Source of the DNA: Salinimicrobium catena
GTDB lineage: Bacteria; Bacteroidota; Bacteroidia; Flavobacteriales; Flavobacteriaceae
Length of the DNA stretch: 52,337 nucleotides
Direction of reading: 5' to 3'
Assembly (NCBI RefSeq): GCF_900102915.1
Contig: NZ_FNGG01000011.1
Coordinates: 1 to 52,337 of the forward strand
Made by a program: the position numbers and the translations under genes. Of the stretch, positions 411 to 46,170 are shown one piece after another. How positions within the stretch are numbered: position 1 is the first letter of the stretch; the number at the start of each line of letters is the position of its first letter. The notes below the pieces were generated by a model, which was given only the letters and a program-made list of their open reading frames with translations, was not told the DNA's origin and made no database searches.

Positions 411-459
411 AATAAACCAAAAACAAGAAACCACAAACCACAAACAACAAACAAAAAAC
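411..459 (-). repeat. Degenerate heptamer array directly after the lptB stop codon
   Basis: Read on the minus strand, the bases after the lptB TAG are seven consecutive 7-mers: GTTTTTT, GTTTGTT, GTTTGTG, GTTTGTG, GTTTCTT, GTTTTTG, GTTTATT. The period is exactly 7 throughout and stops at about 411. The array fills most of the gap between lptB and the IS110 remnant. Confidence 0.85.
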
Positions 460-1200
460 CTAACTAAACAGTTTCTTCTTCCGTAATTCGAAGTTCTGAC
501 CTAAATATACTTTTCGCACCATCTCATCTTCAGCCAGTTCCTCAGGAATACCGGCTTTTAGAATGCGGCCCTCAAACATGAGGTATGTTCTGTCGGTGAT
601 GGCAAGGGTTTCCTGTACGTTGTGGTCAGTGATTAAGATCCCGATATTCTTATCCTTCAGCTGCGCCACGATTCGCTGAATATCTTCCACCGCCACAGGA
701 TCCACCCCCGCGAAAGGTTCATCAAGAAGAATGAAATGAGGGTCGGTGGCCAGGGCCCGAGCGATCTCAGTTCTTCGGCGCTCTCCACCACTTAAAAGAT
801 CTCCCCGGTTCTTCCGAATATGTCCAAGGCTGAATTCCTCTATGAGCGACTCCATCTTCATCTGCCGCTCTTTTTTGGAAAGATCGGTTAATTCCAGCAC
901 GCTCATGATGTTGTCTTCAATGCTCAGCTTCCTGAATACCGAAGCCTCCTGCGCGAGATATCCTATTCCGTACTGGGCACGTTTGTACATAGGAAACTTG
1001 GTGATATTCTCCCTGTCCAGAAAGATCCTGCCACCGTTAGGTTTGATCAGGCCAACGATCATATAAAAAGAAGTGGTCTTCCCGGCTCCGTTGGGACCGA
1101 GCAATCCCACGATCTCTCCCTGGTTCACTTCCAGCGAGATCCCTTTTACAACTTCCCGGCCTTTATAGGACTTTATAAGATTTTCTGCGCGTAGTTTCAT
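460..1200 (-). CDS. lptB: LptB, ATPase of the LPS export ABC transporter
   Basis: A 246-residue ABC ATPase, the usual LptB length. Walker [10 protein letters not shown] at about 35-43, Q-loop Q84, signature LSGGE at 136-140, Walker B ILLDEP at 157-162 and H-loop H193 are all intact. LptB sits on the cytoplasmic face with LptFG and powers extraction of lipopolysaccharide from the inner membrane toward LptA/LptD. It is the last gene of a minus-strand cluster that includes kdsD, needed for the Kdo part of LPS, which supports the assignment over other ABC ATPases. Nothing appears broken. The stop codon is immediately followed by a heptamer repeat array. Confidence 0.93.
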
Positions 1201-1267
1201 ATTGTTGTCTTTAAAAGAAGAGCATCGTGCTGATTTTTATTTCGGCTTTTTAAAAGATCCTTGAGAG

Positions 1268-1299
1268 GAAAAGTGGTCAGAGGACAGAGGTCAGTTTAC
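1268..1299 (-). repeat. Heptamer array after the four-helix-bundle gene stop
   Basis: On the minus strand the bases following the TAA (1298-1296) read ACTGACC, TCTGTCC, TCTGACC, ACTTTTC, a short period-7 array. It resembles the complement of the array on the other side of the same gene (1689-1716), so the gene is bracketed by inverted, related repeats. Confidence 0.75.
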
Positions 1300-1670
1300 T
1301 CTTTGCCCTTTGATCGCAAATACCTTTGTAAGCTTTTGATCATTTTAAAGATTTCCAGCAATAAAATCCTTGATTTCTGATTCTCTTGCTGGGTAATATA
1401 ACCTCTACGGAAGGCTATTGTGGAACAAGTTACACATTCTCTTAATGAATCATCTGCGGTTTGTAAATATTTATGGAATTGAGCGTCTGTATTTCCTGAA
1501 CCTTCCGAAGTGTTCAAAGCCATAGAAACTGCAGCACGGATAAATTGAGAAGTAAGTCCGTAAATTTCAGTTTTTGGAAATTTTGCAGCTAACTCATAAG
1601 CATGATCTGTAAAGTCCAGAGCTTTTTGATAAACTTTCAGATCTTCAAAATTAAAATGTACTTCCTCCAT
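1296..1670 (-). CDS. Four helix bundle protein (23S rRNA intervening-sequence-type family)
   Basis: A 124-residue protein if started at the ATG 1670-1668. An upstream in-frame ATG at 1748 would add 26 residues that read through a heptamer array and into the preceding gene, so the shorter start is preferred; 124 residues also suits the family. Features of the family are FEDLKVYQKALDF near the N-terminus, then FPKTEIYGLTSQFIRAAVSMALNTSEGSG and a long helical C-terminus. These small helical proteins occur inside 23S rRNA intervening sequences and as free-standing genes in many Bacteroidota; their molecular role is not known. It lies between the CMD-like gene and lptB, with period-7 repeats on both sides, and looks like an insertion into an otherwise continuous operon. 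Confidence 0.8.
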   Translation of the reverse strand: MEEVHFNFEDLKVYQKALDFTDHAYELAAKFPKTEIYGLTSQFIRAAVSMALNTSEGSGNTDAQFHKYLQTADDSLRECVTCSTIAFRRGYITQQENQKSRILLLEIFKMIKSLQRYLRSKGKE

Positions 1671-1688
1671 AACTTCAGATTCAAAATT

Positions 1689-1716
1689 CTGTCCTCTTTC
1701 CTCTGTCCACCGTCCA
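1689..1716 (-). repeat. Heptamer array directly after the CMD-gene stop codon
   Basis: Following the TAG at 1719-1717 the minus strand reads TGGACGG, TGGACAG, AGGAAAG, AGGACAG: four 7-mers, then the sequence leads into the start region of the four-helix-bundle gene. Confidence 0.75.
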
Positions 1717-2058
1717 CTAACTCTGTTCGAGTTCCTCCCAATACTCATATGCTCTCCTAAGGTGAGGGATCACTATTGTGCCGCCGACCAGGGTGGCGAT
1801 GCTAAGTGCTTCCATCACTTCCTCTTTTGTAAGGCCTTCCTTGTAGCTGGTCTCCAGATGGTATTTTACGCAATCATCACACCTAAGCACAGTAGAGGCA
1901 ACAAGACCTAATAATTCTTTGGTCTTTACATCCAGGGCACCGGCAGCAAAAGCGTTAGTGTCAAGGTTGAATATGCGTTTTATGATCTTATTGTTGTCGC
2001 CGAGGATCTTATCGTTCATCTTTTGGCGGTATTCATTGAATTCTTCTACTTGATTCAT
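1717..2058 (-). CDS. Carboxymuconolactone decarboxylase / AhpD-like family protein
   Basis: A 113-residue all-helical protein of the CMD family. The AhpD-type redox motif is visible as C-D-D-C followed by a His three residues later (RCDDCVKYH, about residues 59-67), preceded by LVASTVL and followed by GLTKEEVMEALSIATLVGG. Members with this CxxC..H motif are usually thiol-dependent peroxidase-like or disulfide reductases; the decarboxylase activity of the name-giving enzyme is not implied. The ATG overlaps the tatC stop in an ATGA, so the two are translationally coupled in the kdsD-tatC operon. The exact substrate is unknown. Confidence 0.85.
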   Translation of the reverse strand: MNQVEEFNEYRQKMNDKILGDNNKIIKRIFNLDTNAFAAGALDVKTKELLGLVASTVLRCDDCVKYHLETSYKEGLTKEEVMEALSIATLVGGTIVIPHLRRAYEYWEELEQS

Positions 2059-2888
2059 CTTTTTTGTTTTCTTAGCTTTCTATCTTCTTTTTTGGTCACT
2101 ATCCTGGCAATAATAATGCTGATCTCGTAAAGCACCAGTACAGGAATGGCCACAATGATCTGACTTAAGATATCCGGCGGGGTAATGATCGCCGATAGGA
2201 TAAGCACAATGACCAAAGCGAATTTTCGGTATTTCCGAAGGAATTCGGGAGTGACAAGACCTATTTTTGTCAGGAAATAAATGATGATGGGCAGCTCAAA
2301 GATCAGGCCAGAAGCCACGACCGAGGACCTGACAAGTGAGATATAGCTGCCAATGTCAAATTCGTTCAACACCACATCACTTACCTGGTATTTTCCGAGG
2401 AAATTGATAGACAGCGGTGTAACGAGATAATATCCAAAAAGCACTCCTAAAAAGAACAGCAACGAAGAGATGAAAATGAAGCCCCTGGCAGTGTTCCGTT
2501 CATTGGTGTACATAGCCGGAGCAATGAATTTCCAGAATTCGTATAGAACGTAAGGGAATGATATGATGAAGCCTGCCGTAATGGAGGTCCAGATATGCGC
2601 GGAAAATTGTCCGCCCATGGTCCTTGACTGGATGGTAAAAGGCATCTCCTCAAAGCAGAAGCCTCCTTCAACACCTACCATGGTCGATAACCTGCACAGG
2701 ATGTCATAAGTGAAAAAATCGGGATGGGTTGGACCGAAAAGGAGGATGTCAAAAATAAATCCTTTGGCAAGGAAAGCCCCTGTAGCGGCTATGACCACGG
2801 CAAGCGTGGCCCTGATAAGGTGCCAGCGCAGCTCCTCCAGGTGGTCCAGAAATGACATTTCCCCGGCATTGTTCTCTACTTTCGCCAT
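2055..2888 (-). CDS. tatC: TatC, twin-arginine protein translocase subunit
   Basis: A 277-residue polytopic membrane protein. The N-terminal signature SFLDHLEELRWHL (about 12-24), with the Glu/Arg pair used in twin-arginine signal recognition, is present, followed by six predicted hydrophobic segments, including PYVLYEFWKFIAPAMY and the late SAIITPPDILSQ motif. TatC is the receptor component that binds folded, signal-peptide-bearing substrates and works with TatA in the inner membrane. The central periplasmic loop is longer than in E. coli TatC, with two Cys residues. It lies 4 nt downstream of kdsD and overlaps the next gene. No tatA is visible in the window. Confidence 0.93.
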   Translation of the reverse strand: MAKVENNAGEMSFLDHLEELRWHLIRATLAVVIAATGAFLAKGFIFDILLFGPTHPDFFTYDILCRLSTMVGVEGGFCFEEMPFTIQSRTMGGQFSAHIWTSITAGFIISFPYVLYEFWKFIAPAMYTNERNTARGFIFISSLLFFLGVLFGYYLVTPLSINFLGKYQVSDVVLNEFDIGSYISLVRSSVVASGLIFELPIIIYFLTKIGLVTPEFLRKYRKFALVIVLILSAIITPPDILSQIIVAIPVLVLYEISIIIARIVTKKEDRKLRKQKR

Positions 2889-2892
2889 TCTT

Positions 2893-3858
2893 CTAGATGA
2901 TTCCTTCTCTAATTAGGTTATGCAGGTGCACCACCCCGTAATATTTTCCGTTCTTAACAGCCAATAACTGTGAGATCTTGTTCTCCTCCAAAACATCAAG
3001 CGCGTCAACTGCCATGGCATTGTGGTCTATGATCTTGGGGTTTTCGCTCATGATATCTTTGGCTTCCAACCCTGAGATGTCGGTGCTTTTATAAAGCATT
3101 CTTCTAATATCCCCATCTGTGACTATCCCCAGGATCTTGTCATTTTCAACCACTGCGGCTACTCCCAGCATCTTTTCGGAGATCTCGACGATCACCTTAG
3201 GAATAGGGGTATTGGGAGATACCACTGGTTTTTGATTTTGTTCCGCAATATCGCTCACCCGCAGGTACAGCTTTTTACCGAGTGCTCCTCCCGGATGGTA
3301 CTTTGCAAAGTCTCTGCTTGAAAAACCACGCAGGTCCAAAAGGCACACTGCCAGGGCGTCTCCCAATACCAGTTGGGCGGTGGTGCTGGTGGTAGGAGCC
3401 AGGTTGTTAGGGCAAGCTTCCTTTTCTACAAATGAATTCAGGGTGAAGTCTGCCTGCTGACCCAAAAATGAATCCTTATTTCCGGTTATGGCGATAAGGG
3501 TGTTCTTGAAATTTTTGATAAGTGGGACTAGCACTTTGATCTCGGGAGTATTTCCGCTTTTTGAGATGCAGATCACCACATCATCCTTAAGAATAGTGCC
3601 CAGATCTCCGTGTATGGCATCGGCGGCATGCATGAAAACCGCAGGCGTTCCCGTCGAGTTCAGCGTGGCAACAATTTTTGTAGCAATTACAGCACTTTTT
3701 CCAATTCCTGTAATAATAACTCTACCTTTGCTTTTGTAGATGGTCTCTACGGCCATGGCAAAATTTTGGTCTAATAATTGCTCTAGATTGGCTATGGCTT
3801 TAGCTTCAGTTAAAATGGTTTCTTTGGCAACAGAGAGGATTTTTTCTTGAGGTGTCAA
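2893..3858 (-). CDS. kdsD: Arabinose-5-phosphate isomerase KdsD (KpsF/GutQ family)
   Basis: 321 residues: an SIS domain (about 40-190) with GIGKS at 51-55, HAADAIHGDLG at 77-87 and CISKSGNTPE at 97-106, followed by a pair of CBS domains (about 205-321). This is the architecture of D-arabinose 5-phosphate isomerases, which convert ribulose 5-phosphate to arabinose 5-phosphate, the first committed step to Kdo in LPS core synthesis. It is the first gene of the minus-strand operon kdsD-tatC-CMD-(four-helix)-lptB and faces recQ. A TAnnTTTG promoter element lies about 55 nt upstream of its start. Confidence 0.9.
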   Translation of the reverse strand: MTPQEKILSVAKETILTEAKAIANLEQLLDQNFAMAVETIYKSKGRVIITGIGKSAVIATKIVATLNSTGTPAVFMHAADAIHGDLGTILKDDVVICISKSGNTPEIKVLVPLIKNFKNTLIAITGNKDSFLGQQADFTLNSFVEKEACPNNLAPTTSTTAQLVLGDALAVCLLDLRGFSSRDFAKYHPGGALGKKLYLRVSDIAEQNQKPVVSPNTPIPKVIVEISEKMLGVAAVVENDKILGIVTDGDIRRMLYKSTDISGLEAKDIMSENPKIIDHNAMAVDALDVLEENKISQLLAVKNGKYYGVVHLHNLIREGII

Positions 3859-3911
3859 ATTTGTAGAATTATGAATTGCATGACTTAAAGAAAAACGTAT
3901 CTTTAATTGTG

Positions 3912-3937
3912 CAAATGTATGTAAAATTGTAACACAA
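3912..3937 (-). promoter_or_regulatory. Promoter of the kdsD operon
   Basis: On the minus strand TACATTTG (3919-3912) matches the Bacteroidota -7 consensus TAnnTTTG. A TTG (3937-3935) lies 15 nt upstream, closer than the usual -33 spacing. The element lies in the 83-nt gap between kdsD and recQ. Confidence 0.55.
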
Positions 3938-3941
3938 TTGA

Positions 3942-6140
3942 ATGACTTCGCAGGAAATCAACTTACACGAACAGCTTAAAAAATACTTTGGTTTCAGCCA
4001 GTTCAAAGGCCTTCAGGAAGAGGTTATTAAGAGTATCGTGAATGACCATAATACCTTTGTGGTCATGCCTACCGGAGGTGGTAAATCCCTATGTTATCAA
4101 CTGCCCGCCTTGATCAAAGACGGGACGGCAATTGTGGTTTCCCCCCTAATAGCCCTGATGAAAAACCAGGTAGATGCCATCCGCGGAATTTCTTCGGAAA
4201 ACGGCATCGCGCATGTGCTGAATTCTTCCCTGAACAAGACAGAAGTAAAACAGGTGAAGGAAGACATTACGAACGGAATCACGAAATTGTTGTACGTTGC
4301 CCCCGAATCCCTTACAAAAGAAGAGAACGTTGAGTTTTTAAGAAGCGTAAAAATATCGTTTTTGGCGATAGATGAAGCGCACTGTATAAGTGAGTGGGGC
4401 CACGACTTCAGGCCCGAGTACCGTAATCTTAGGAACATTGTAAAAAGAATAGGAGAGAATATTCCCATTATTGGGCTAACGGCTACGGCTACGCCCAAGG
4501 TGCAGGAAGACATCCTGAAGAACCTGGGCATCACTGATGCCCGTACGTTCAAGGCTTCTTTTAACAGGCCAAACCTTTATTACGAGATACGCCCAAAGAC
4601 CAAGAATGTCGATGCCGATATCATTCGGTTCGTCAAGCAAAATCAGGGAAAGACGGGAATTATCTACTGCCTTAGCCGAAAGCGAGTGGAAGAACTCGCC
4701 CAAACCCTGCAGGTGAACGGAATTTCGGCAGTGCCCTATCATGCCGGACTTGACGCGAAAACTAGGTCTAAACACCAGGACATGTTCCTTATGGAAGATG
4801 TAGATGTGGTGGTGGCCACGATCGCCTTCGGAATGGGGATCGATAAACCGGATGTGCGCTTCGTGATCCACCATGATATTCCCAAGAGTATAGAAAGTTA
4901 TTATCAGGAGACCGGCCGTGCCGGAAGAGATGGAGGAGAAGGGCATTGCCTCGCCTTCTATTCCTATAAAGATATCGAGAAACTGGAGAAGTTCATGAGC
5001 GGAAAACCCGTTGCAGAACAGGAGATTGGCCATGCCCTATTACAGGAGGTGGTGGCTTTTGCCGAAACTTCGGTTTCCAGGAGAAAGTTCATCCTGCACT
5101 ATTTTGGAGAGGAATTCGATGAGAAGACCGGTGAAGGTGCAGACATGGATGACAATGTTCGAAATCCGAAGAAACAGCATGAAGCCGGCTCTGAACTTGA
5201 GCTGTTGCTGAAGACGGTGAGAGAGACAAAAGAGCTGTATAAATCCAAGGAGGTGGTAAACACCCTGGTTGGGAAATCAAATGCCGTTATCAAGTCGCAC
5301 AAGACCGATGAGCATGAACTTTTTGGAAAAGGTAAAGAAAAAGATTCCAAGTATTGGATGGCGCTGTTACGCCAGGCTCTGGTTGCAGGTTATCTGCGGA
5401 AGGATATCGAATCCTACGGGGTGGTGAAACTGACTAAGAAAGGCGCCAAATTCCTTGAGAAGCCCTATTCCTTCATGATGAGTGAAGACCATACTTATGA
5501 AGTCGATGGTCATGATGGCATTGTGACCGCTGCCAAAGGAGGAGGTGGTACAGATGAGAGGCTGGTGAAGATGCTGAAGGAATTGCGTAAGAAAGTCGCT
5601 AAAAAATTGGGAGTGCCACCATTCGTGGTGTTCCAGGATCCGTCCATTGAAGATATGGCGCTCAAGTATCCTGTTTCAGTTGATGAACTGAGCAATATCC
5701 ATGGAGTAGGAGAAGGAAAGGCCAAGAAATACGGAAAAGATTTCGTGGAGCTCATTGGACGTTACGTGGAAGAGAACGATATTACTCGCCCCGATGACCT
5801 GGTGGTAAAAACCACCGGCGCCAACAGCGGACTTAAATTATACATCATTCAGAACGTAGACCGTAAATTGCCTTTAGATGATATCGCTGCCGCCAAGGGC
5901 ATGGAAATGCCCGACTTCATCAAAGAGATGGAAGCCATTGTCTACAGCGGTACTAAACTGAACATCAATTACTGGATCGACGAGATCCTGGATGAAGACC
6001 AGCAGGAAGAGATCCACGAATATTTCATCGATGCAGAATCTGACAGGATAGAAGAAGCCCTTGAAGAATTCGACGGAGATTATGACGAAGAAGAATTAAG
6101 GCTATACCGCATCAAATTCATCAGTGAAGTAGCGAATTAA
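3942..6140 (+). CDS. recQ: RecQ-type ATP-dependent DNA helicase
   Basis: 732 residues. Superfamily 2 helicase core with TGGGKS (44-49), DEAH (144-147), GLTATATP and the C-terminal helicase motif QETGRAGRDG; then the RecQ-Ct/winged-helix region; then an HRDC domain at about 540-612; then an acidic C-terminal extension. RecQ unwinds DNA 3' to 5' in recombination and repair. Odd point: where E. coli RecQ has its four zinc-ligand cysteines (CRR...YFGE...CGNCDIC), this protein reads SRR...YFGEEF...GEGADMDDNV, so all four Cys are absent although the surrounding YFGE motif is kept. No frameshift is seen. It is divergent from the kdsD operon and ends in a hairpin terminator. Confidence 0.93.
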   Translation: MTSQEINLHEQLKKYFGFSQFKGLQEEVIKSIVNDHNTFVVMPTGGGKSLCYQLPALIKDGTAIVVSPLIALMKNQVDAIRGISSENGIAHVLNSSLNKTEVKQVKEDITNGITKLLYVAPESLTKEENVEFLRSVKISFLAIDEAHCISEWGHDFRPEYRNLRNIVKRIGENIPIIGLTATATPKVQEDILKNLGITDARTFKASFNRPNLYYEIRPKTKNVDADIIRFVKQNQGKTGIIYCLSRKRVEELAQTLQVNGISAVPYHAGLDAKTRSKHQDMFLMEDVDVVVATIAFGMGIDKPDVRFVIHHDIPKSIESYYQETGRAGRDGGEGHCLAFYSYKDIEKLEKFMSGKPVAEQEIGHALLQEVVAFAETSVSRRKFILHYFGEEFDEKTGEGADMDDNVRNPKKQHEAGSELELLLKTVRETKELYKSKEVVNTLVGKSNAVIKSHKTDEHELFGKGKEKDSKYWMALLRQALVAGYLRKDIESYGVVKLTKKGAKFLEKPYSFMMSEDHTYEVDGHDGIVTAAKGGGGTDERLVKMLKELRKKVAKKLGVPPFVVFQDPSIEDMALKYPVSVDELSNIHGVGEGKAKKYGKDFVELIGRYVEENDITRPDDLVVKTTGANSGLKLYIIQNVDRKLPLDDIAAAKGMEMPDFIKEMEAIVYSGTKLNINYWIDEILDEDQQEEIHEYFIDAESDRIEEALEEFDGDYDEEELRLYRIKFISEVAN

Positions 6141-6358: not shown

Positions 6359-6364
6359 GGAAGA

Positions 6365-6826
6365 TCATTCCGGATCATTAAAGATATATCGCTCATCATA
6401 TTCTATGGAATTTTCTTGCAAAAATCTCAGATATTCCTTCCGAAATGATCTTTTTAAATGATGCTCCTCCTGATTTGCTATGTAGGAAATTATTCGGGGG
6501 ATCTGTTGTTTTGAATAAGAAAATGCACCATACCCTTCCTGCCATGCAAACTTTTTATTTGTCAGCTTTTGCTCATTTATCCACTTTGAGGAGCTACCTT
6601 TAATATCCTGCAGGAGGTCAGAAATAGATTGATTCGGTCGCATTCCCACGAGGATGTGCAAATGATCTGCCATGCCATTAATGATGATCATTTTATGACC
6701 ATTCCGCTGAACGATACCCGTAATATATTGATAAAGGCGATCTTTCCATTCTTGCTTGATCAATGATTCTCTGTACTTAACGGCGAAAATAAACTGTATG
6801 TGGATCTGTGTGTATGTATTTGGCAT
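6365..6826 (-). CDS. REP-associated tyrosine transposase (RAYT, IS200-like Y1 TnpA)
   Basis: 153 residues of the Y1_Tnp family. The HUH metal-binding motif is H55-L56-H57 in MADHLHILV and the likely nucleophile is Y115 in RIISYIANQEEHH; MRPNQSISDLLQDIKGSSSKW is the usual family linker. Such domesticated single-copy relatives of IS200/IS605 transposases cut and rejoin single-stranded REP hairpins and are thought to spread REP sequences through the genome. The context fits: the gene sits between six short palindromes with the core CCCGTAGGG, two on its left and four on its right, in both orientations. The frame is intact. No flanking IS ends or companion gene were seen. Confidence 0.9.
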   Translation of the reverse strand: MPNTYTQIHIQFIFAVKYRESLIKQEWKDRLYQYITGIVQRNGHKMIIINGMADHLHILVGMRPNQSISDLLQDIKGSSSKWINEQKLTNKKFAWQEGYGAFSYSKQQIPRIISYIANQEEHHLKRSFRKEYLRFLQENSIEYDERYIFNDPE

Positions 6827-8181: not shown

Positions 8182-8205
8182 GAAGCACTCAATAAAATAA
8201 AATGA

Positions 8206-8240
8206 AACCTCAGTTTCCGTAAGGGAGCTGAGGTTTTTTT
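8206..8240 (+). terminator. Terminator after the cyclophilin-FKBP gene
   Basis: AACCTCAG (8206-8213) pairs with CTGAGGTT (8228-8235), followed by a run of T. Confidence 0.85.
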
Positions 8241-8245
8241 AATTT

Positions 8246-8301
<56 letters not shown>

Positions 8302-8346
8302 TTACTTTTACTGATCACCAATCTCCAATTAACCGTTCTCAAGGAA

Positions 8347-9722: not shown

Positions 9723-10181
9723 ATGAGAACATTAGACGAGTGGTTCTCGGAATATGCCGTGAGCCACCAGAACGAGACCAATAAGGCCATACACTATATT
9801 TGTGTACCAGCTATTTTCTTTTCCATTGTAGGTTTGTTGATGAGCATTCCGCCGGGCCCCTTAACAGATATCTTCCCAATGTATATTCCTTTTTTGGAGA
9901 ACTGGGCTGTGGTAGTGCTGGTTCTGGTGCTACTGTTCTATTTTAGGCTCTCGGTGAGTATGGGTTTCAAGATCCTGATCTTTGCCGGACTGTGCATAGC
10001 CGGGAATTACTATTTGTCAATGGTCGCGCCGCTGTGGATAGCTTCTTTGATTATATTCGTCGTCGCCTGGATCGGTCAGTTCTACGGACATATAATAGAG
10101 GGCAAGAAACCTTCATTTTTGAAGGATATTCAGTTTCTGCTTATCGGTCCGGCCTGGGTGATCAAGAAGGTTTTTGGGTGA
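9723..10181 (+). CDS. DUF962 / Mpo1-like membrane protein
   Basis: 152 residues with four hydrophobic segments (about 25-45, 57-75, 82-100, 102-120). The N-terminal block LDEWFSEYAVSHQNETNKAIHYICVP and the C-terminal FYGHIIEGKKPSFLKDIQFLLIGPAWV are hallmarks of DUF962, the family of yeast Mpo1 (YGL010w), an iron-dependent dioxygenase acting on 2-hydroxy fatty acids. Conserved His residues (HQN, HYICVP, GHIIEGKKP) could be metal ligands. Function in bacteria is not established. The TGA is immediately followed by an eleven-unit heptamer array. Confidence 0.85.
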   Translation: MRTLDEWFSEYAVSHQNETNKAIHYICVPAIFFSIVGLLMSIPPGPLTDIFPMYIPFLENWAVVVLVLVLLFYFRLSVSMGFKILIFAGLCIAGNYYLSMVAPLWIASLIIFVVAWIGQFYGHIIEGKKPSFLKDIQFLLIGPAWVIKKVFG

Positions 10182-10258
10182 AGGTAGATTTTAGAAGTAC
10201 GAAGTTAGAAGTGGGAAGTCAGAAGCTAGAAGCTGGAAGCTGGAAGCTGGAAGTTGGA
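10182..10258 (+). repeat. Eleven-unit heptamer array directly after the DUF962 stop
   Basis: Units from the first base after TGA: AGGTAGA, TTTTAGA, AGTACGA, AGTTAGA, AGTGGGA, AGTCAGA, AGCTAGA, AGCTGGA three times, AGTTGGA. Period is exactly 7 over 77 nt. Units drift at internal positions while the trailing GA stays fixed. Confidence 0.92.
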
Positions 10259-13553: not shown

Positions 13554-14195
13554 ATGGACAACAAGTTCAAAAAACGGCTTAATTATGCTCTCATTCTCAG
13601 CATGATCACTATAGGTTACAACACCCTGGAAGGTGCGATTTCCACTTTCTTTGGTGCCAGCGATGAGACTTTAGCACTCTTCGGGTTTGGGCTGGACAGT
13701 TTTGTGGAAGTACTCTCGGGTGTAGGGATCGCGCATATGATCTACAGGATGAAAAAACGGTCCGTGGTGGAACGCGACAGCTTTGAGGTGACCGCGCTAA
13801 AAATAACCGGCACAGCTTTGTACATCCTTGCCGCCGGACTGGTAGTGGGAGCCGTACTGGCAGTGGTCAATCGGTCTGAACCCGAGACAACCCTGGCCGG
13901 GATCATCATTGCAGTTCTGTCTATACTTACCATGTACTTTTTATACCGGGAGAAGATCAAGGTGGGGAAAAAGCTGGACAGCCAGCCCATTATTTCAGAT
14001 GCCAAATGCACCAAAACCTGTTTTTATCTTTCATTCATTCTGCTAACGTCAAGTCTGCTTTATGAACTTTGGGAGATCCCGTATGTGGATGCCCTGGGAA
14101 GTATCGGGATCGCATGGTACGCGTGGAAAGAAGGCAAAGAAGCCTGGGAGAACGCCAGGACAAAAAGCCTGAGCTGCAGCAGTGATTGTTGTTAG
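13554..14195 (+). CDS. CDF-like cation transporter without cytoplasmic domain
   Basis: 213 residues with six predicted membrane segments. The first two resemble cation diffusion facilitators (NTLEGAISTFFGASDETLALFGFGLDSFVEVLSG), with an Asp in TM2, and an Asp also occurs in TM5 (PYVDALGSIGIAWYAWKEG). CDF exporters usually have about 300 residues with a C-terminal metal-sensing domain; this protein ends after TM6 and instead carries a short tail with three Cys (SCSSDCC), plus C-T-K-T-C before TM5. Zinc-type HxxxD motifs are not intact, so the substrate could differ from Zn/Fe. It sits between two near-identical hairpin structures, separate from the TonB receptor transcript. Confidence 0.75.
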   Translation: MDNKFKKRLNYALILSMITIGYNTLEGAISTFFGASDETLALFGFGLDSFVEVLSGVGIAHMIYRMKKRSVVERDSFEVTALKITGTALYILAAGLVVGAVLAVVNRSEPETTLAGIIIAVLSILTMYFLYREKIKVGKKLDSQPIISDAKCTKTCFYLSFILLTSSLLYELWEIPYVDALGSIGIAWYAWKEGKEAWENARTKSLSCSSDCC

Positions 14196-14202
14196 AACAG
14201 CC

Positions 14203-14301
14203 CTCGGCTTCCCGGGGATTTAATATTAATTATAACATATTTTACGGGCTTTAGCCCAAAAAAGAGAGGCTCTAAAAATCGCATTTTTGGAGCCTCTCTT
14301 T
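14203..14301 (+). terminator. Mini-palindromes plus long hairpin after the CDF-like gene
   Basis: GGGCTTTAGCCC (14246-14257), a 3-nt gap, then a hairpin of about 19 bp (14261-14279 / 14283-14301) whose apex is A5T-N3-AT5, as at 13463-13509. A degenerate GGCTTC copy lies at 14203-14219. It also serves as a terminator for the opposing M14 peptidase gene. Confidence 0.8.
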
Positions 14302-14311
14302 ATTTGAGATA

Positions 14312-14346
14312 ATCTCAATACTCAATACTAACTACTCAATACTACA
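14312..14346 (-). repeat. Heptamer array directly after the M14 peptidase stop
   Basis: On the minus strand, after the TGA (14349-14347): TGTAGTA, TTGAGTA, GTTAGTA, TTGAGTA, TTGAGAT. Five period-7 units. Confidence 0.85.
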
Positions 14347-16860
14347 TCACATTTCGTCCCCAAAGAAGATCGCGTTCATGAGCAGTTTATTGGTGCCATA
14401 CCAGAACGCCCTGAAGTTTGTGTTATCGGTGAACAGGATCACATTTCCTCTGCCAATGGAGGTGTGCTTGAACGGCACAGTTCCCGGAAGAAGTTCCAGG
14501 TTCTCTTCACTGATATATCCGCTTAATAGCGGTTCTTCGGTATATTTTATAGGGTTCTTATAAGAGGTGGAATCTGCTTTGACAAAAATGGTAGTGTCTC
14601 TGAAAAGGGCCAGTTTATCATCCTTATACCCGAAGTTGATAGGGTGGGAGCGGTCCAGTTTGGCTTCAAAAATAGCACCGCCTATTCCCTGTGCGCCATG
14701 GAAATCCCGCCGCTGCTCAAAAGAGACATTTTTGGCAGTAATTTCATTTTCTTCGAACTCCAGGTCCATGAACTCATTCTTGTCCAGCCAGTTCGCGGCA
14801 TTTTTATAACCTATCAGAGTTCCGCCATTCCTGACCCATTCCTTTAATTTTCCGGCTTCTTTTCCACCCACGGCGCTGCCCCAGGAGTTCGGAAGAATGA
14901 TATCGGTATACCTGCTAAGGTCTGCCCTCGAAAAATCGGAAAGGTCGAGTTTGGTGATCTTCATATCGTACCGCTGATCGAACAGGTGCCACATTTCTCC
15001 CGCGTCATAAGGAGTAATTCCGTCACCTACGATCATGGCCACCTTTTGAGGCTCCAGCGCCCTGAACTGGTTGCTTCCTAAATTTACTCCGCCGGTGAGA
15101 CCCGTATTGACAGCTGAGATCTCCACGTTGGCCGATCTTGACGCTTTTTCTATGATCTCATAGATCTCATCAGGATTGAGTTTCTGGTTTTGGGCCGGGA
15201 TAAGAATGCTTCCGTAATCATATTCTCTGTCACCTGCCCAGAATTGCTGCATGGCTACCTTGGCCCGTAATCCCTTATTTAGGATCTCGTTCAATACTTT
15301 TGGCGCTTCGTAAGGATGCCACTCCATTAAATAAGCGTACTCGCTTTTTTCAGGAGTTGCAATTTCGGGCTTAGTGAGTTTGTCGATCTTTTGACCGGCG
15401 TATTTCATAGAAGCTTCTTCTGTAAAATCTACATTGAAGGCCAGTGGAAAAGACCAGGCAGAAATGTCATAGAAGAGGCTGTCTTCAAAAGTGGTCCTTC
15501 TTTCGAACATGGCTTTTAAAAGCCTGTTGTGTTTTTGTTGCTTCGGGACAAGATAACTGCTTCCGGTCTTAAAGGTCTTCCCATTTTTGCTGAACTGTTC
15601 TTTTACCTCGTGCAACTCCACCTGGTGGCGCTTCAGGATTTCAGCAAGATGATAAGCTGAAGCAGCGTCTTTAGGATTTCCGAAGGCGTAGGCACCCTTC
15701 TCAGCTTCATTGCGGGCGTTCTTATAGAAGTTTCTTTGATAATCTAAGAGTTCCGTCCTCATTTCCTGCGCGGCTTTCAAGGTAGAAAGCGCTGCGGTGA
15801 ACTGGTTGCGGATGGTGAACGGGAAGGTCAGGATGCCGTTGTCGGTTTCCTGGGCGTGGCCCCTGGAGCTGCCCTGTTCAAAAAGAATCCCAATACTTCC
15901 CTGGATATCAGGGAAGGTAGAACCTTTTCCGTAGTAGAAATCGTCATAGTTTTCCTCAGTATAATACAAAGAGCCTATATCATCAAAAGCGGCCGCGTGG
16001 TAGGTGCCGATCTCCTTTGTGAGCTCCTGGTTAAGATCGGGAGTGAGGGGATGGGTCCTTGAGGGAATTCCCGGCTGAAAGAAGAACGAGGAGTTCTTCC
16101 CCATTTCGTGATGATCTGTAAGGATGTTGGGATACCAATTGTGAAAGGTCTCGATCCTGGCCTGGCTTTCTGGTAATTGTACCGGAAGCCAATCGCGGTT
16201 CATGTCAAACCAGTAGTGGTTGGTTCTTCCTCCGGGCCATACTTCGCTGTATTCCCTGTCTTGCGGATCAGGATTAATGTTCTCGCTCTTGTTGGTATTA
16301 GCCCAGTATGAGAATCTTTGCAGCCCGTCCGGATTGAAGACCGGGTCGAAAAGGATCACGGTATTTTTGAGCATTTCTTCTATTTCAGGACCTTCGGCCG
16401 CTGCTAAATGATAAGCGACAAGAATTCCGGCGTTCGCGCCACTGGCTTCATTTCCGTGGATGGAGAACCCCTGGTTTACCACAATGGGCATTTCTGAAGT
16501 GTTCAGTTTTTCAGCTCCCGGCTCGGTAAGGGCCACATGTTGTTTACGGATCTCTTCCAGATTGGCGTGATTGGCTTCCGAAGTGATCGTCAACAGGATC
16601 AAAGGACGGCCTTCATAGGTGGTGCCGCGGTTTTCCAAAGTGATCCTGGGTGAACTTTCGGCAAGTGCTCTCATGTAATTGAGGATCTGGTCATGGCTGG
16701 CGTGCCATTCTCCAGGAATGTATCCCAGTACTTCCTGGGCTTTTGGAATTTCATCATTATAGGTTACACCTTTTGGCAGGTAATAGGAAAGATCGAGCTT
16801 TTCCTGGGCAACAGCATTAAAAGCGAGCAGGAAGCTCAATGCAAATAACAGTTTTTTCAT
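14347..16860 (-). CDS. M14-family zinc carboxypeptidase, secreted
   Basis: 837 residues with an N-terminal signal peptide (MKKLLFALSFLLAFNAVAQ). Catalytic domain at about 50-400: zinc ligands H135 and E138 in SIHGNEASGA, a later His in TDHHEMG (H250/H251), and the catalytic Glu near E328 in GILFEQGS. The C-terminal half contains a glutamine-amidotransferase-like fold region (VGDGITPYDAGEMWHLFDQRYDM ... LPNSWGSAVGGKEAGKLKEWV), as in other large Bacteroidota M14 proteins. It should trim C-terminal residues from peptides in the periplasm or outside the cell. No T9SS tail is seen. Expressed singly. Confidence 0.88.
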   Translation of the reverse strand: MKKLLFALSFLLAFNAVAQEKLDLSYYLPKGVTYNDEIPKAQEVLGYIPGEWHASHDQILNYMRALAESSPRITLENRGTTYEGRPLILLTITSEANHANLEEIRKQHVALTEPGAEKLNTSEMPIVVNQGFSIHGNEASGANAGILVAYHLAAAEGPEIEEMLKNTVILFDPVFNPDGLQRFSYWANTNKSENINPDPQDREYSEVWPGGRTNHYWFDMNRDWLPVQLPESQARIETFHNWYPNILTDHHEMGKNSSFFFQPGIPSRTHPLTPDLNQELTKEIGTYHAAAFDDIGSLYYTEENYDDFYYGKGSTFPDIQGSIGILFEQGSSRGHAQETDNGILTFPFTIRNQFTAALSTLKAAQEMRTELLDYQRNFYKNARNEAEKGAYAFGNPKDAASAYHLAEILKRHQVELHEVKEQFSKNGKTFKTGSSYLVPKQQKHNRLLKAMFERRTTFEDSLFYDISAWSFPLAFNVDFTEEASMKYAGQKIDKLTKPEIATPEKSEYAYLMEWHPYEAPKVLNEILNKGLRAKVAMQQFWAGDREYDYGSILIPAQNQKLNPDEIYEIIEKASRSANVEISAVNTGLTGGVNLGSNQFRALEPQKVAMIVGDGITPYDAGEMWHLFDQRYDMKITKLDLSDFSRADLSRYTDIILPNSWGSAVGGKEAGKLKEWVRNGGTLIGYKNAANWLDKNEFMDLEFEENEITAKNVSFEQRRDFHGAQGIGGAIFEAKLDRSHPINFGYKDDKLALFRDTTIFVKADSTSYKNPIKYTEEPLLSGYISEENLELLPGTVPFKHTSIGRGNVILFTDNTNFRAFWYGTNKLLMNAIFFGDEM

Positions 16861-25959: not shown

Positions 25960-26043
25960 ATTCCAGATCCCCATCCTAAAGACTACAGACTACAGACTAC
26001 GAACCATAAACAATAAACAATAAACAATAAACAATAAACAAGA
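25960..26043 (+). repeat. Heptamer array with drifting unit after the LysE-family gene
   Basis: From 25981: GACTACA twice, GACTACG, AACCATA, AACAATA four times, AACAAGA. The unit changes from GACTACA to AACAATA inside one array without losing the 7-nt phase. The first clear unit lies exactly 21 nt (three periods) after the TAA. Confidence 0.92.
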
Positions 26044-42201: not shown

Positions 42202-42287
42202 ATTCAGTAAATTAAATGGTCAATTAACAGCTTCAGTTTTTGCGTGTTAAAAACGAACCGATAAACCTAAAATTTATCTCCGTAACC

Positions 42288-42309
42288 CTCTGTAACCAAT
42301 GTTACAGAG
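42288..42309. promoter_or_regulatory. Inverted-repeat operator between tsdA-like and nucleotidase genes
   Basis: CTCTGTAAC and GTTACAGAG are exact 9-nt inverted arms around CAAT. The inner TGTAAC-N4-GTTACA has the spacing of a Crp/Fnr-family dimer site. Located about 87 nt upstream of the TsdA-like start and 98 nt upstream of the nucleotidase start. Confidence 0.6.
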
Positions 42310-42342
42310 TCAGATTTTAAATAATTCTATTTTGGATTTTTT

Positions 42343-42362
42343 GCAATACTATAAGGTATTGC
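42343..42362 (+). promoter_or_regulatory. Hairpin in the nucleotidase leader
   Basis: GCAATAC (42343-42349) pairs with GTATTGC (42356-42362) around TATAAG, 45 nt upstream of the revised ATG at 42407. Role unknown. Confidence 0.35.
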
Positions 42363-42406
42363 AGATCCTGATCATAAATAATGACAAAACGCATAATTCA
42401 GTTACA

Positions 42407-44017
42407 ATGAAAAAGAGAAAACTTGTATTAGGAAGTCTGCTGTTGGGGCTTTTAATTACCGGCTGTGATTCCTCGAAGAAATCAGCAAACAATTCGACGT
42501 CAGCTGCGGAACCTGCCGTGAGGAGCATTTCCATTTTGCATACCAATGACATGCACGGTTCTTATATGCCATTTACGACCACGACCGACAATGCCACTGC
42601 TCAAACCGGTGATTCCATAGATAACCTGGTGAGATTTGACCGGGCAGAAGAGATCGGGGGATTTGCCTGGTTAGCCGGGGCGATTAAATCCGTGAGGGAA
42701 AAAAGAGGAGAGGACATGGTGATCCTGCTTGATGGTGGTGACACTTTTGGTGATGACCAGCTGGGGAATCTCACCAAAGGAGAGGCCATGATAAAAATGA
42801 TGAATCTGGTGGATTATGACCTTATGGCCCTTGGAAACCACGACTTTGATTATGGCCTGGAGCAGACCCGCAACCTGGAGCAACTTGCCAACTTTCCCAT
42901 GCGGGCAGCAAATATAAAAGAAGAGGATACCCATAAACCCATTTTTGGGGAAGCCTACGTCATTATCGAAAAACAAGGTCTTAAAATTGGCCTGCTGCCT
43001 TTGAGTTACCGCAATACGCCTCTTACCGGAAATCCTGCGAACATCAAAGGCCTCAGGTTTGAGACAGGGATCAATGCCATAATGGAGCAACTTCCAAAAC
43101 TTGAAGAGGAAGCAGACATTATAGTGGTGCTTTCGCATGAAGGCATGGCCGTTGACAAGCTTATTGCTGAAGAGGTCGAGGGCGTAGACCTTATTGTGGG
43201 AGCGCACAGTCATGATGTGATCTATCCACCCATGAAGATCAATGATACCTACATAGTGCAGGCACTTTCGGACGCTTCGGTATTAGGAGAGACTACAGTG
43301 AGCCTTGAGGAAGGTAAAATAAGTAATGTAGAAGCCAACTATCACTATCTGTGGCATGATGAAGTAGAACCCGATCCTGAAGTAAAAGAGCTTATTTCAC
43401 AGCTAAGGTCAGAGTATCGTTCGAAGCTCGAAGAAAAAGTGACCGTAGCCGATACCATCATTGGCAGGCAGTACAAATCTGAAAGCCCTTTTGATAAGGT
43501 AGTGAACAATCTTATGAGAGAGAATTATGATACCGAAGTGGCCTTTATGCCGGGGGTGGGCTATGGAATTTCCCTGCAAGACGAGGTGAAGAGCGAAGAT
43601 GTTTACAAGCTTTTGCCGCATCCTGCAAAGATCATCACGCTGGAGCTTTCTGGGGAACAGATCAAAGCTACGCTGGAGCAAAGCGCGGCCAATATCAAGC
43701 CGAAGGATAAACTGAAGACGGTAGGCGGACTCATCCAAACTTGCGGAATAAGCTATGAGCTGGATTTTAACAAGCCGGTAGGACAGAGAATTTCAGATCT
43801 GAAGGTCAACGGGCAGGAAATAGAACCCTCTCGAAGTTACACAGTGGCCACTCACAGCGGAATGCTCAACGGGATCCACAACTATACAGAATTTAAAAAG
43901 GGTAAGAACCTTGAAAAGACCGGAAAGCCTCTCAACGAGTTTATAGTGGAACAGCTCAAGAAAAATGAGGTGCTGAGTTTTCCTGAAAATATGGGAGAGG
44001 TAATGATCGTTCAATGA
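42407..44017 (+). CDS. 5'-nucleotidase / metallophosphatase lipoprotein
   Basis: 536 residues from the ATG at 42407; an in-frame ATG at 42299 adds 36 residues before the lipoprotein signal and overlaps the inverted repeat, so it was rejected. Lipobox ITGC. Calcineurin-like domain with HTNDMHGSY, LDGGDTFGDDQLG, ALGNHDFDYG, VLSHEG and VGAHSHD; C-terminal 5'_nucleotid_C domain (about 340-520). It hydrolyses extracellular or periplasmic nucleotides such as AMP or UDP-sugars to scavenge phosphate and nucleosides. It is divergent from the TsdA-like gene and ends in a strong terminator. Confidence 0.9.
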   Translation: MKKRKLVLGSLLLGLLITGCDSSKKSANNSTSAAEPAVRSISILHTNDMHGSYMPFTTTTDNATAQTGDSIDNLVRFDRAEEIGGFAWLAGAIKSVREKRGEDMVILLDGGDTFGDDQLGNLTKGEAMIKMMNLVDYDLMALGNHDFDYGLEQTRNLEQLANFPMRAANIKEEDTHKPIFGEAYVIIEKQGLKIGLLPLSYRNTPLTGNPANIKGLRFETGINAIMEQLPKLEEEADIIVVLSHEGMAVDKLIAEEVEGVDLIVGAHSHDVIYPPMKINDTYIVQALSDASVLGETTVSLEEGKISNVEANYHYLWHDEVEPDPEVKELISQLRSEYRSKLEEKVTVADTIIGRQYKSESPFDKVVNNLMRENYDTEVAFMPGVGYGISLQDEVKSEDVYKLLPHPAKIITLELSGEQIKATLEQSAANIKPKDKLKTVGGLIQTCGISYELDFNKPVGQRISDLKVNGQEIEPSRSYTVATHSGMLNGIHNYTEFKKGKNLEKTGKPLNEFIVEQLKKNEVLSFPENMGEVMIVQ

Positions 44018-44038
44018 TCTAAAGAAGGATATTACTAG

Positions 44039-44076
44039 AAAAAGGCTGTTCTGGAATTCCTGAACAGCCTTTTTTA
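44039..44076 (+). terminator. Terminator after the nucleotidase
   Basis: AAGGCTGTTC/GAACAGCCTT stem followed by T6. Confidence 0.9.
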
Positions 44077-44108
44077 ATCAACCGTATTACACGGTGTAGG
44101 GGGAGATC

Positions 44109-44303
44109 TTAATGAACAGAGCTCATATTGAGTTTTTCTTTGATAGTGTCTTCGTTCTTGCGGTAGTATTTGTACCCCAGGTAACCGGCTCCGGCAACAG
44201 CACCCCACTTAAGAAGGCTTCCAGTCCATTGCAGGCCTTTTTTGGCCACCCACAGTTTTGCTACTTTTTCTCCGGCTTCCTTTGCGTTTCTTTTTAAGTC
44301 CAT
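44109..44303 (-). CDS. Small membrane-associated protein (64 aa)
   Basis: 64 residues: a basic helix (LKRNAKEAGEKVAKLWVAKKGLQW), a Gly/Ala-rich membrane-like segment (GSLLKWGAVAGAGYLGYKYY) and a charged tail. Not recognised as a named family. The upstream sequence is A-rich with no Shine-Dalgarno, as for other genes here. Being isolated, with a strong terminator on one side, it may be a short transcript by itself. Probability of being a real gene is moderate. Confidence 0.5.
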   Translation of the reverse strand: MDLKRNAKEAGEKVAKLWVAKKGLQWTGSLLKWGAVAGAGYLGYKYYRKNEDTIKEKLNMSSVH

Positions 44304-44417
44304 TTTTGTTTAGTTTTTTAGATTCCTTTTCAAATTCCGAAAGAATCGCTTCTTTTTGCGTTAAAGCCTTTCCAAATAACATCAGTTTAACTGATTTTCA
44401 GAATCTTTTAGAAATGA

Positions 44418-45149
44418 TCAGGCCTTCCCTGTGGGTTTGATCAGCAATTCGTTCACATTTACATTGTCGGGTTGGGTAAGGGCGTAGATCACCGCATCGG
44501 CAATATTCTCAGGGCTTAATTTGGGTTCGTTATCTGAGTAATGTTTGTCGCCCAACAATTCCTGATCAGTAATATCATCTCTCAGGTTGGTCGCCACCGT
44601 ACCGGGTTCAATGGCGGTCACCCTAATGTTGAATTCGGGGGAGAGCTCCATACGCATGGCTCGGGACAGGGCGATCACCGCGGCTTTGGAAGCCCCATAC
44701 ACCGCGCCGCCTTCAAAGATCTCCCGTCCGTCTACAGATGCGATGTTGATAATGTGCCCGTTCTTTTGGGTCTTCATGGCCGGCAGTACCTCATTGATGC
44801 ACCTTAGCGTCCCTTTTACATTCACTTCAATTGTCTCCAGCCACTCATCAAGATGTCGGTTCTTTAAATAGGTGAGCGGCATCACACCGGCGGAATTTAC
44901 CAGGATATCCACCTGGCCAAAACGTTCCCAAATATCATGGAAACAGCCGGTAACGCTTTCGGTATTGCTCACGTCCATATCGGCTACCATGGTTTCATTT
45001 TTAAGCTCTTCCTGAAGCTCGATCAATTTCTCCACACTACGGCTGGCCAGTACCACTTTACAGCCTTCTGCGGAAAGTCTTTTCGCAATGGCCTTCCCTA
45101 TTCCGCTGCTGGCGCCGGTCACTACTGCTACTTTATCCTTTATTTTCAT
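44418..45149 (-). CDS. Short-chain dehydrogenase/reductase
   Basis: 244 residues from the ATG at 45149-45147. An in-frame ATG at 45224 would add 25 residues before the Rossmann fold and was rejected. Cofactor motif TGASSGIG (about 12-19), NSAG, and catalytic Tyr/Lys in GGAVYGASKAAV. Classical SDR; basic residues after the glycine motif (ASRS) suggest NADP(H). Substrate not predictable. Proteins close to this one are annotated as general oxidoreductases of the YdfG type. Confidence 0.88.
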   Translation of the reverse strand: MKIKDKVAVVTGASSGIGKAIAKRLSAEGCKVVLASRSVEKLIELQEELKNETMVADMDVSNTESVTGCFHDIWERFGQVDILVNSAGVMPLTYLKNRHLDEWLETIEVNVKGTLRCINEVLPAMKTQKNGHIINIASVDGREIFEGGAVYGASKAAVIALSRAMRMELSPEFNIRVTAIEPGTVATNLRDDITDQELLGDKHYSDNEPKLSPENIADAVIYALTQPDNVNVNELLIKPTGKA

Positions 45150-45355
45150 TTTGGCGGTTTTGTTTCTATACAATATCGGAGTTTCAGGAGGATTTTCAGA
45201 ATTCAGCAGCCTAAATAACATCATTTTAACTGCTGATTATGAGAGGTGTAAGCCATTTGCCTGTTAAATCACGTATTTTGTCTAATTTTTAAGGTGGTCT
45301 TTAAATAAATATCTGTTTATTAGTAAATTAGATGGTAATTTTTAAAAACTGATCT

Positions 45356-45871
45356 ATGAAAATGTATAAGTTGTTACCCTTTTTAGGGCTGTTGCTAGTA
45401 TTTGGAGCATGCCAGGACAGGGAAAGAGAAGAAGTGGCTGAAGAAGAAGAAGTAATGGTCGAGGATACCTGGGATTCTGATGAAGCCATGGCCGACTGGC
45501 GCGATGCCTGGAACCAGAACGATGCGCAAAGCCTGGAAGCTGCCACGGCCGATGATGTCGTGCTTATGTTCAATGGAAAAGCCCACAGGCAGGACAGTGT
45601 AACCTCCTGGATCCAAAACAGCGCTTCCTGGATGAAGAATTTGCGCACCACTTCTGTAATGAAGAAAAAAGGCGAAGACTTCGCTTATGAAACGGGTACC
45701 TATACCCATGCGACAACAGAGAACGATACCATGCAAATGGCCGGAACCTATACCGTGATCTGGGAACGCAGTGGGGATCAAAACGAGTGGGCTATAAAAT
45801 TAATGGATATTACCCCGGAAACGCAGATGGATAGCATGCCGATGCCAAAGCAGGACATGCGGCCAGAATAA
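45356..45871 (+). CDS. NTF2-like (DUF4440/SnoaL) lipoprotein
   Basis: 171 residues. Lipobox FGAC at the end of the signal peptide. A very acidic linker (EEVAEEEEVMVEDTW) precedes an NTF2-like domain (about 50-160) with ADWRDAWNQNDAQSLEAATADDVVLMFNGKAH and a final WAIKLMDITPE. The NTF2 fold is often catalytic, but no catalytic set is evident here; such lipoproteins are common in Bacteroidota and their function is unknown. Monocistronic with a terminator hairpin. Confidence 0.8.
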   Translation: MKMYKLLPFLGLLLVFGACQDREREEVAEEEEVMVEDTWDSDEAMADWRDAWNQNDAQSLEAATADDVVLMFNGKAHRQDSVTSWIQNSASWMKNLRTTSVMKKKGEDFAYETGTYTHATTENDTMQMAGTYTVIWERSGDQNEWAIKLMDITPETQMDSMPMPKQDMRPE

Positions 45872-45888
45872 GGTTTTACTAACCGCCA

Positions 45889-45927
45889 AAAAAGAGGCCT
45901 TTCGTTATCGAGGGGCCTTTTCTTTTT
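45889..45927 (+). terminator. Terminator after the NTF2-like gene
   Basis: GAGGCCTTTCG pairs (with G-T wobbles) with CGAGGGGCCTTT around TTAT, followed by a T-run. Confidence 0.75.
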
Positions 45928-45946
45928 GATAATTCATATATCAAAT

Positions 45947-46170
45947 ACCACGTATTCAAGATTCAAAACCTGATATTCAAGATTTCCAAAACTTTACAAT
46001 CCTTTCTTTCAGGATTCTCATCACACGCTTATTTTGGAAGTTGGGAGCTTGCTGTTGATATTTCAGGTTTTACGGTCCTAGCGCGACCTTTGCGAGAAAG
46101 TCTGCGACAATCAGCATCTCTGTGCACTTAATCAAATTTTCGTGGTCTTTGTGTGAAATACCTGGCACTA
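45947..46170. repeat. Degenerate heptamer array and mosaic of short repeats
   Basis: ATTCAAG (45954), ATTCAAA (45961), ACCTGAT (45968), ATTCAAG (45975), ATTTCCA (45982) keep a 7-nt period. Farther on, GGAAGTT GGGAGCT and CCTTTGCG, TTCGTGGTCTTTGTG resemble the arrays at 10182-10475. No gene is visible. Confidence 0.6.

Follow-up and report, generated by a model that had tools for sequence, protein, structure and literature searches.

What process generates tandem repeats that keep the length of their unit and change its sequence from one array to the next? This question is raised by contig NZ_FNGG01000011.1 of Salinimicrobium catena, a stretch of 52,337 nucleotides analysed here in full (the window) and belonging to a draft genome of 3.26 Mb, in which intergenic arrays with a 7-nt period are confirmed and two of them enclose a small gene of the S23 family (TIGR02436/PF05635). 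Heptamer arrays and S23 genes probably form one system, composed of elements that lie between protein genes and resemble the intervening sequences (IVS) of 23S rRNA. The period, position and polarity of the arrays, the dispersal of a sequence cassette, the presence of arrays at S23 genes and the matching of the arrays around them are observed in Bacteroidota, Cyanobacteria and one Azospirillum locus. A further proposal, which we regard as possible but doubtful, is that bacterial heptanucleotide arrays are maintained or mobilised by S23 proteins, the elements between genes being autonomous and solo arrays, which lack an S23 gene, their non-autonomous offspring. Heptamers are on record from unrelated bacteria, with no accepted mechanism, and matched arms around S23 genes provide a common and testable frame for these repeats and for the S23 proteins. 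If true, the proposal would account for the unexplained heptamers of Bacteroidota, Cyanobacteria, Xanthomonas and Beggiatoaceae, and the 23S rRNA IVS would be one special case of an mRNA-borne element. Matched arms also raise the questions of whether S23 proteins bind the heptamer stem or single strands, and whether the elements are excised from mRNA or move.

Arrays with a period of seven

A lag scan of the window (lags 1–30, score of at least 11) returned seven arrays, every one with a period of 7, 14 or 21, and 20 shuffles of the window gave 0.1 arrays at lag 7 per window. The preliminary description of this DNA had listed eight separate arrays, all of which are present at their coordinates with a 7-nt lag. 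When the surrounding 1.2 kb of each was subjected to 400 dinucleotide shuffles, seven were reached by none and the weakest, at 45954–45988, by 1 of 400. This last array is thus marginal, and those at 1268–1299 and 1689–1716 are not separate arrays, being the two arms around one gene. The enrichment at lag 7 extends to its multiples: in 747,270 bp of the genome (a figure that includes one piece consisting entirely of N, L032, which was dropped from later analyses), 53 of 66 intergenic arrays have a period of 7, 14 or 21 (36, 15 and 2, respectively), and five shuffles of the intergenic pieces produced none. No such excess occurs in the coding DNA of the same sample. Score thresholds of 10–18 give the same picture, with other periods commoner at 10, and no arrays were found in the five stretches of this genome with a GC content below 38%. 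Genes were called with a home-made hexamer caller, and start positions are uncertain.

S23 genes between reverse-complementary arms

The protein encoded by the S23 gene of the window (Table 1) matches TIGR02436 (E=1.6e-25) and the Xanthomonas XCC0516 structure, PDB 2gsc (E=1.3e-12), and the PF05635 match extends over a longer open reading frame (ORF), 1296–1748 (E=2.8e-26). In the predicted fold of positions 1230–1760 the two heptamer arms are paired (z=-3.2), as they are in the predicted folds of two further elements (z=-5.9 and -4.4). The element (1230–1720) is present in this genome, G007 and G010 and absent in six relatives (G009, G002, G005, G006, G004 and G011), one of which, G006, carries AGAGGACAGTGG at the empty-site position; the six are too diverged for the ends of the element, and thus a target-site duplication, to be defined. 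Together with copy numbers, this single presence/absence site suggests that such elements may be mobile. Among the matches listed, there are 9–16 PF05635 copies in nine of ten nearly complete Salinimicrobium genomes and three in the tenth (G003), five in G008 (75% complete), none in G001 (74% complete) and 0–11 in other genera, with no copy in the 14 control genomes.

Table 1. Coordinates of the S23 gene, its arms and the other heptamer arrays of the window.
Feature	Position	Strand	Remarks
S23 (23S_rRNA_IVP) four-helix-bundle protein gene, 124 aa	1296..1670	-	TIGR02436, PF05635 (profile matches); ORF within element
5' arm, (GGACAGA)n on S23 sense strand	1689..1716	-	Between stop of gene 1717-2058 and S23 start; inverted score 14.5; lag-7 score 11
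3' arm, CTGACCTCTGTCC	1268..1299	-	Reverse complement of 5' arm; overlaps S23 stop; lag-7 score 7
Solo array, GTTTGTG (sense strand of gene 460-1200)	411..459	-	Abuts the gene's stop; G-strand outward; score 21
Solo array, TAGCCAC/TAGCCAT	8246..8301	.	Between convergent genes; terminator-like hairpin adjoining; score 42
Array after stop of gene 9723-10181	10182..10258	+	Proximal part kept in relatives, distal part expanded in this genome
Array, TTGAGTA family	14312..14346	-	Contains dispersed 16-mer AGTAGTTAGTATTGAG; near stop of gene 14347-16860
Compound array, GACTACA then AACAATA	25976..26041	+	Between co-directional genes
Weak, marginal array, ATTCAAG	45954..45988	.	Lag-7 score 6

Arrays accompany S23 genes far more often than other genes. 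A lag-7 array (score of at least 8) lies within 140 nt of 12 of the 15 S23 genes read in this genome and of 54 of 622 other genes (p=2e-10). In five genera that are nearly free of arrays, the corresponding figures are 7 of 10 and 14 of 356 (p=8e-8), and arrays occur at both flanks of three of these ten S23 genes and of none of the 356 others. No S23 gene was found in 122 other stretches (2.23 Mb) at E<=1e-3, nor in phages at E<=1e-5.

The arms are also matched to each other. Altogether 33 S23 loci at 24 sites were read, comprising 15 of the 16 matches in this genome, eight in relatives and ten in other genera (nine hand-picked matches and one already known). Their median arm reverse-complement score is 13.0, compared with 7.5 for 383 permuted partners (p=6e-14) and 8.0 for 331 other genes, two of which are S23 genes (p=3e-11). 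The 95th percentile of the permuted partners (11.0) is exceeded by 22 of the 33 loci, six of the ten from other genera among them, that of the other genes (12.5) by 17, and their 99th percentile by nine. With one locus per site the result is the same (median 13.0 vs 8.0, p=2e-12; the 95th percentile is exceeded at 17 of 24 sites). Plain matched arms, such as (AGGGAAC)n / S23 / (GTTCCCT)n, occur on plasmids of Nostoc, Calothrix, Geminocystis and Azospirillum; in the 20 of 26 plasmid records with an S23 match that were read, the median is 12.75 vs 7.5 (p=6e-5), with nine of 20 over the permuted 95th percentile. S23 elements thus bear terminal inverted repeats in the form of heptamer arms, a feature shared with insertion sequences and MITEs, whereas solo arrays do not. 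The neighbours of S23 genes on both sides lie on the same strand in 21 of 28 cases, compared with 319 of 608 for genes in general (p=0.02); one element (L276) is located between ATP synthase genes, another (L277) between two CoA-transferase genes, and some plasmid S23 genes lie inside CRISPR or transfer operons. On three cyanobacterial plasmids (L293, L299, L300) the S23 gene is found inside a CRISPR operon, with cas6 and cas4 or cas10 and a Cmr3-type gene as its neighbours.

In the proposed model, a full element would lie between two host genes and consist of an S23 ORF with a heptamer array on one side and a reverse-complementary array on the other. In the host transcript the arms would form a long stem by pairing, leaving the S23 ORF in its loop, as in the S23-encoding IVS of 23S rRNA, and we infer that this stem forms in vivo and is cut by RNase III. 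Selection would act on the complementarity of the arms and not on their sequence. If pairing alone is selected, the unit is free to drift or to be replaced provided that both arms follow, leading to a fixed period with changing units, which would explain why length rather than sequence is constant. Slippage and copying between the arms, through template switching in the hairpin, would preserve both their similarity and their register. One pair of loci fits such concerted change: L067:5191 and L290, the latter from another genus, share the same two neighbours, and their own arms score 13.0 and 10.5, whereas crossed arms score 7.5 and 8.0. Solo arrays would be derivatives that lack S23: the same process of slippage or template switching would have copied or expanded them, and purifying selection would press them on the coding edge. 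Their polarity is that of the arms, the G-richer strand pointing outward from the host gene, and they lie directly beside stop or start codons of host genes. Any account of why the period is seven is inferential.

Several observations weigh against this reading. At eleven of the 33 S23 loci the score is no higher than the 95th percentile of permuted partners; no arm match is present at L279, L291, G007 258969 and G005 63611, and the direct-repeat score is the higher one at L289, G007 334141, G002 92260, G010 52407 and L293. An S23 gene lies between the same neighbours in this genome, G017 and G023 (L067:6858, L285 and L244), with poorly matching arms at L285 (8.0), and another does so in this genome and G024. 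The presence of S23 genes at one site in several genera suggests long residence and not frequent movement, and the three-genus site may be either an old insertion that was retained or a preferred site. Moreover, a listed S23 gene is found at a distance of up to 200 nt from only 16 of 161 arrays and is not near the other 145 (90%). The gaps of 75 solo arrays contain no reverse-complement partner for them (median 6.0, equal to the null value of 6.0; p=0.45), so that the interpretation of solo arrays as inverted pairs is not supported. The descent of solo arrays from S23 elements is therefore suggested by period, units and polarity only. Finally, array density is not predicted by the number of S23 genes in a genome (rho 0.41 over 14 genomes, p=0.14; about 0 when the genus is left out), and G017 and G020, with 11 and eight S23 genes, respectively, have few or no solo arrays. 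Small GIY-YIG/PDDEXK_3 ORFs also lie between inverted repeats at L038:1880-2179 (-) and L062:9899-10234 (+), with scores of 16 and 19, respectively, and other small nucleases may thus ride in similar elements.

Position and polarity of the arrays

The preliminary description did not mention the polarity of the arrays, their abutment on stop codons or the S23 genes. In the position, polarity and unit tests reported below, related loci recur in the array counts (G005 and G007 are 90% alike). Among co-directional arrays, 20 of 69 lie within 5 nt of the upstream stop and 11 of 69 within 5 nt of the downstream start (2.9 expected in each case), and 23 of 39 convergent arrays lie within 5 nt of a stop (4.9 expected). 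Over 690 gene ends, mean lag-7 identity in the 25 nt past the stop is 0.32–0.35, compared with 0.25–0.29 at lags 5, 6, 8 and 9, and gene starts give little signal.

Polarity was determined for the 147 arrays in which G and C are unequal. In 39 of these a stop, and in ten a start, is found no more than 5 nt from the 5' end of the G-richer strand; for the 3' end the counts are four and two, respectively. The end nearer to coding sequence is the 5' end of the G-richer strand in 109 of the 147. Neighbouring arrays within one gap converge in 14 cases, diverge in two and point in the same direction in 24. Array-free edges have no comparable skew after stops but a milder skew of the same sign before starts, and the polarity at starts is therefore weaker evidence. 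Outside the genus the rule is followed by 19 of 25 independent 7- or 8-nt arrays (not 21 of 27, because L147, L149 and L150 represent one array at a conserved site). The compound array of the window, at 25976–26041, is an exception, the 3' end of its G-richer strand being 16 nt from a stop and the 5' end 37 nt from a start. A replication-strand bias was rejected as the cause, since stop-edge polarity is 20:5 where the outward strand is leading and 20:1 where it is lagging. Several arrays (L038, L044, L049) are bordered by a shared sequence, TGTGGAGTCCTAAATAGGGTTGAC, perhaps the end of an insertion sequence.

The abutment of arrays on genes could also arise if arrays crept, that is, if they expanded in a polar manner on a G-rich template into their flanks until halted by coding constraint, the association with S23 genes being secondary. 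The pressing of 5' ends on coding edges and the irrelevance of the replication strand agree with this, as does the composition of stop codons: TAG accounts for 21 of 48 stops at array edges and 347 of 1524 elsewhere (p=0.0015), and the last stop base is in phase with the array at a frequency of 0.52 vs 0.35. However, at genes 9723–10181 and 13554–14195 the array lies between the stop and a flank that is also found in relatives, and therefore looks inserted and not eaten in, and creeping leaves the S23 arms unexplained; we consider this explanation unlikely. Erosion of C-termini by arrays was not seen (C-terminal length differs in 1 of 14 array pairs and in 23 of 144 others), and no gradient of array age runs outward from the gene (17 vs 22 of 47, with 8 ties). 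Stop codons within the units, present in 22 of 48, are unconvincing as a cause of array position.

Recurrence and replacement of units

The near-fixed period with differing units holds, whereas the view that the units are unrelated does not. The 37 arrays of this genome have 29 distinct canonical units where 36 would be expected, and the unit AACCGAC is found in ten arrays across six sequence sets, which are not always six species (G006 and Ssedim are one genome). Two different units are spanned by a degenerate 16-mer, AGTAGTTAGTATTGAG, for which eight of 12 genomes contain 36 matches, distributed over about 27 loci; the reversed control has none. Of the 22 loci read, 15 have the onset of the 16-mer at most 16 nt from a stop and two at most 14 nt from a start; the other five are located 34, 66 and 67 nt from starts, 566 nt from a stop and at a contig end. 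Units also change inside arrays, as at 10182–10258 and 25981–26043. Orthologous gaps behave differently from one another: in gap 14196–14346 the unit is common to the orthologues, and for gap 8182–8346 five relatives have a 7-nt array of other units (two sharing CCTTAAA) and three have no array. After gene 9723–10181 comes a conserved, degenerate heptameric stretch, which in three of the eight genomes shown is separated from the stop by a TTGAGTA-type array. Added to the preliminary description are the polarity, the recurring units with their 16-mer, and the S23 elements with matched arms. Another 16-mer, GCTATTTGCTCGTTAA, occurs at nine places in the low-GC contigs L046 and L039, for which an integron-type cassette array is a guess.

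Distribution and the slippage hypothesis

A heptamer excess as such was already known: it is recorded for bacteria in general, weak (median) in Bacteroidetes, and heptamers of Gramella forsetii are included, according to the available parts of these reports (PMC4060949, PMC4692102, PMC4679880). In the relative G009, 12 of 15 intergenic arrays in 200 kb have a period of 7, 14 or 21, compared with one of seven in G024, from another genus. Among eleven further genera of Flavobacteriaceae (G012–G017 and G019–G023; 60–80 kb each), only G023 (one of period 7, one of 14) and G015 (one of 14) have such arrays at score 11. Some other genera have octamer arrays with similar placement, as does G008 within the genus, where ATTGGTGA (L007, 1087–1174) occupies a gap that holds heptamer arrays in several relatives.

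Neutral slippage, a hypothesis credited to Mrazek in PMC4692102 as far as the part consulted goes, would attribute all this to a polymerase that sets steps of 7 and sometimes 8 nt, with arrays gathering under weak selection and S23 genes merely lying in such gaps. The heptamer excess recorded for many bacteria, near-exclusive in this genome, is in keeping with it, and so is the avoidance of divergent promoters: array density per kb is 0.04–0.25 in divergent gaps, 0.45–0.9 in co-directional and 1.1–1.4 in convergent ones. Array lengths differ greatly between 90%-identical relatives, and the columns of 30 arrays vary as by chance (109 invariant columns vs 107 expected), so that a motif conserved within the units is unsupported. 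Slippage predicts neither the matched reverse-complementary arms around S23 genes nor arrays at these genes in nearly array-free genera, and neither polarity nor the dispersal of one degenerate cassette, and on balance it appears rather unlikely. As regards other enzymes, a reverse transcriptase was discarded as the cause (no RVT_1 match in this genome, G000, although six other genomes of the genus have one), and DinB and MutS were rejected, being present as DinB-type proteins in 38 and MutS-type proteins in all of 40 genomes.

Relation to known repeat systems

The closest parallel to the S23 elements is the 23S rRNA IVS of Coxiella and Leptospira, in which an S23-family ORF lies between complementary, potentially stem-forming ends. 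The likeness concerns full elements such as that of ORF 1296–1670 and not solo arrays, and the complementary ends are recognised in most S23 elements from the sequence and the predicted fold only. In Coxiella, tandem heptamers of variable copy number precede the S23 ORF of the IVS, RNase III cuts rRNA IVS elements, and S23 proteins have solved structures with a function that is not known, as stated in the sections of PMC4990558 available. In the accessible open-access literature, heptamer arrays linked to S23 genes were found nowhere outside this Coxiella IVS, which is no proof of novelty. Unlike the IVS, the elements described here separate protein-coding genes, arrays often flank the S23 gene on both sides, and the unit varies from element to element; where they could be called or were annotated, the neighbours are protein genes, and no Rfam match occurs in the window.

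The G-rich heptamers of Xanthomonas and Nostoc (Rehm 2015, PMC4692102) likewise have a period of 7, are mostly intergenic and, in the parts of that paper covered, lie nearer to the ORF at their 5' end (28 nt, compared with 160 nt). Convergent pairs number 70 and 75 in two Xanthomonas species, and inverted pairs are few in Nostoc. There, however, the units are few and of G-quadruplex type, with no link to S23 in the parts covered, whereas the units here are many. The S23 structure 2gsc is that of a Xanthomonas protein. On our reading, the published Xanthomonas repeats and some TAACTGA repeats obey the same polarity as far as those sources are covered.

The TAACTGA heptamers of Beggiatoaceae, Cyanobacteria and Bacteroidetes (MacGregor 2015, PMC4679880) have an AAC-type strand oriented toward starts and reversed after a stop in F. 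litoralis; they differ in having a single unit, read as a regulator site, and a mixed orientation in Microcystis, according to the parts of the paper seen. By analogy, arrays could be binding sites of a post-transcriptional regulator beside starts and stops. Their frequent abutment on these codons in a fixed orientation, which is also seen for TAACTGA in a Beggiatoaceae genome and in F. litoralis according to the same portions of that paper, speaks for such a role. Nevertheless, units differ between orthologous gaps, columns are not conserved, most genes have no arrays, and orientation is set by the edge of the gap at starts and stops alike, so we judge this role very unlikely.

Repetitive extragenic palindromic (REP) sequences, which occur with REP-associated tyrosine transposases (RAYTs), are dispersed intergenic repeats on which a gene may act in trans. 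They differ from the arrays in being palindromic, the palindromy of array units having been judged by eye. RAYTs were rejected as the cause of the arrays, as they form a separate palindromic system and have no match in the array-bearing G004. The window itself contains an IS200-like Y1_Tnp gene (6365–6826, -) that is flanked by palindromes, GTCCCGTAGGGAC, and not by heptamers; it is RAYT/REP-like, and G007 and G010 have copies of it at the corresponding position. As a control, no heptamer array was found within 170 nt of the Y1_Tnp genes at seven loci read.

The heptanucleotide repeats of heterocystous cyanobacteria are known as short tandemly repeated repetitive (STRR) sequences. We know of no link between these and S23. 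Like the arrays described here, they combine a period of 7 with several units, as in the Calothrix example in the part of PMC4692102 seen. Elsewhere in the window, a tandem pair of about 243 bp at 48528–49000 lies inside the large ORF 47611–50580 and perhaps corresponds to repeated protein domains.

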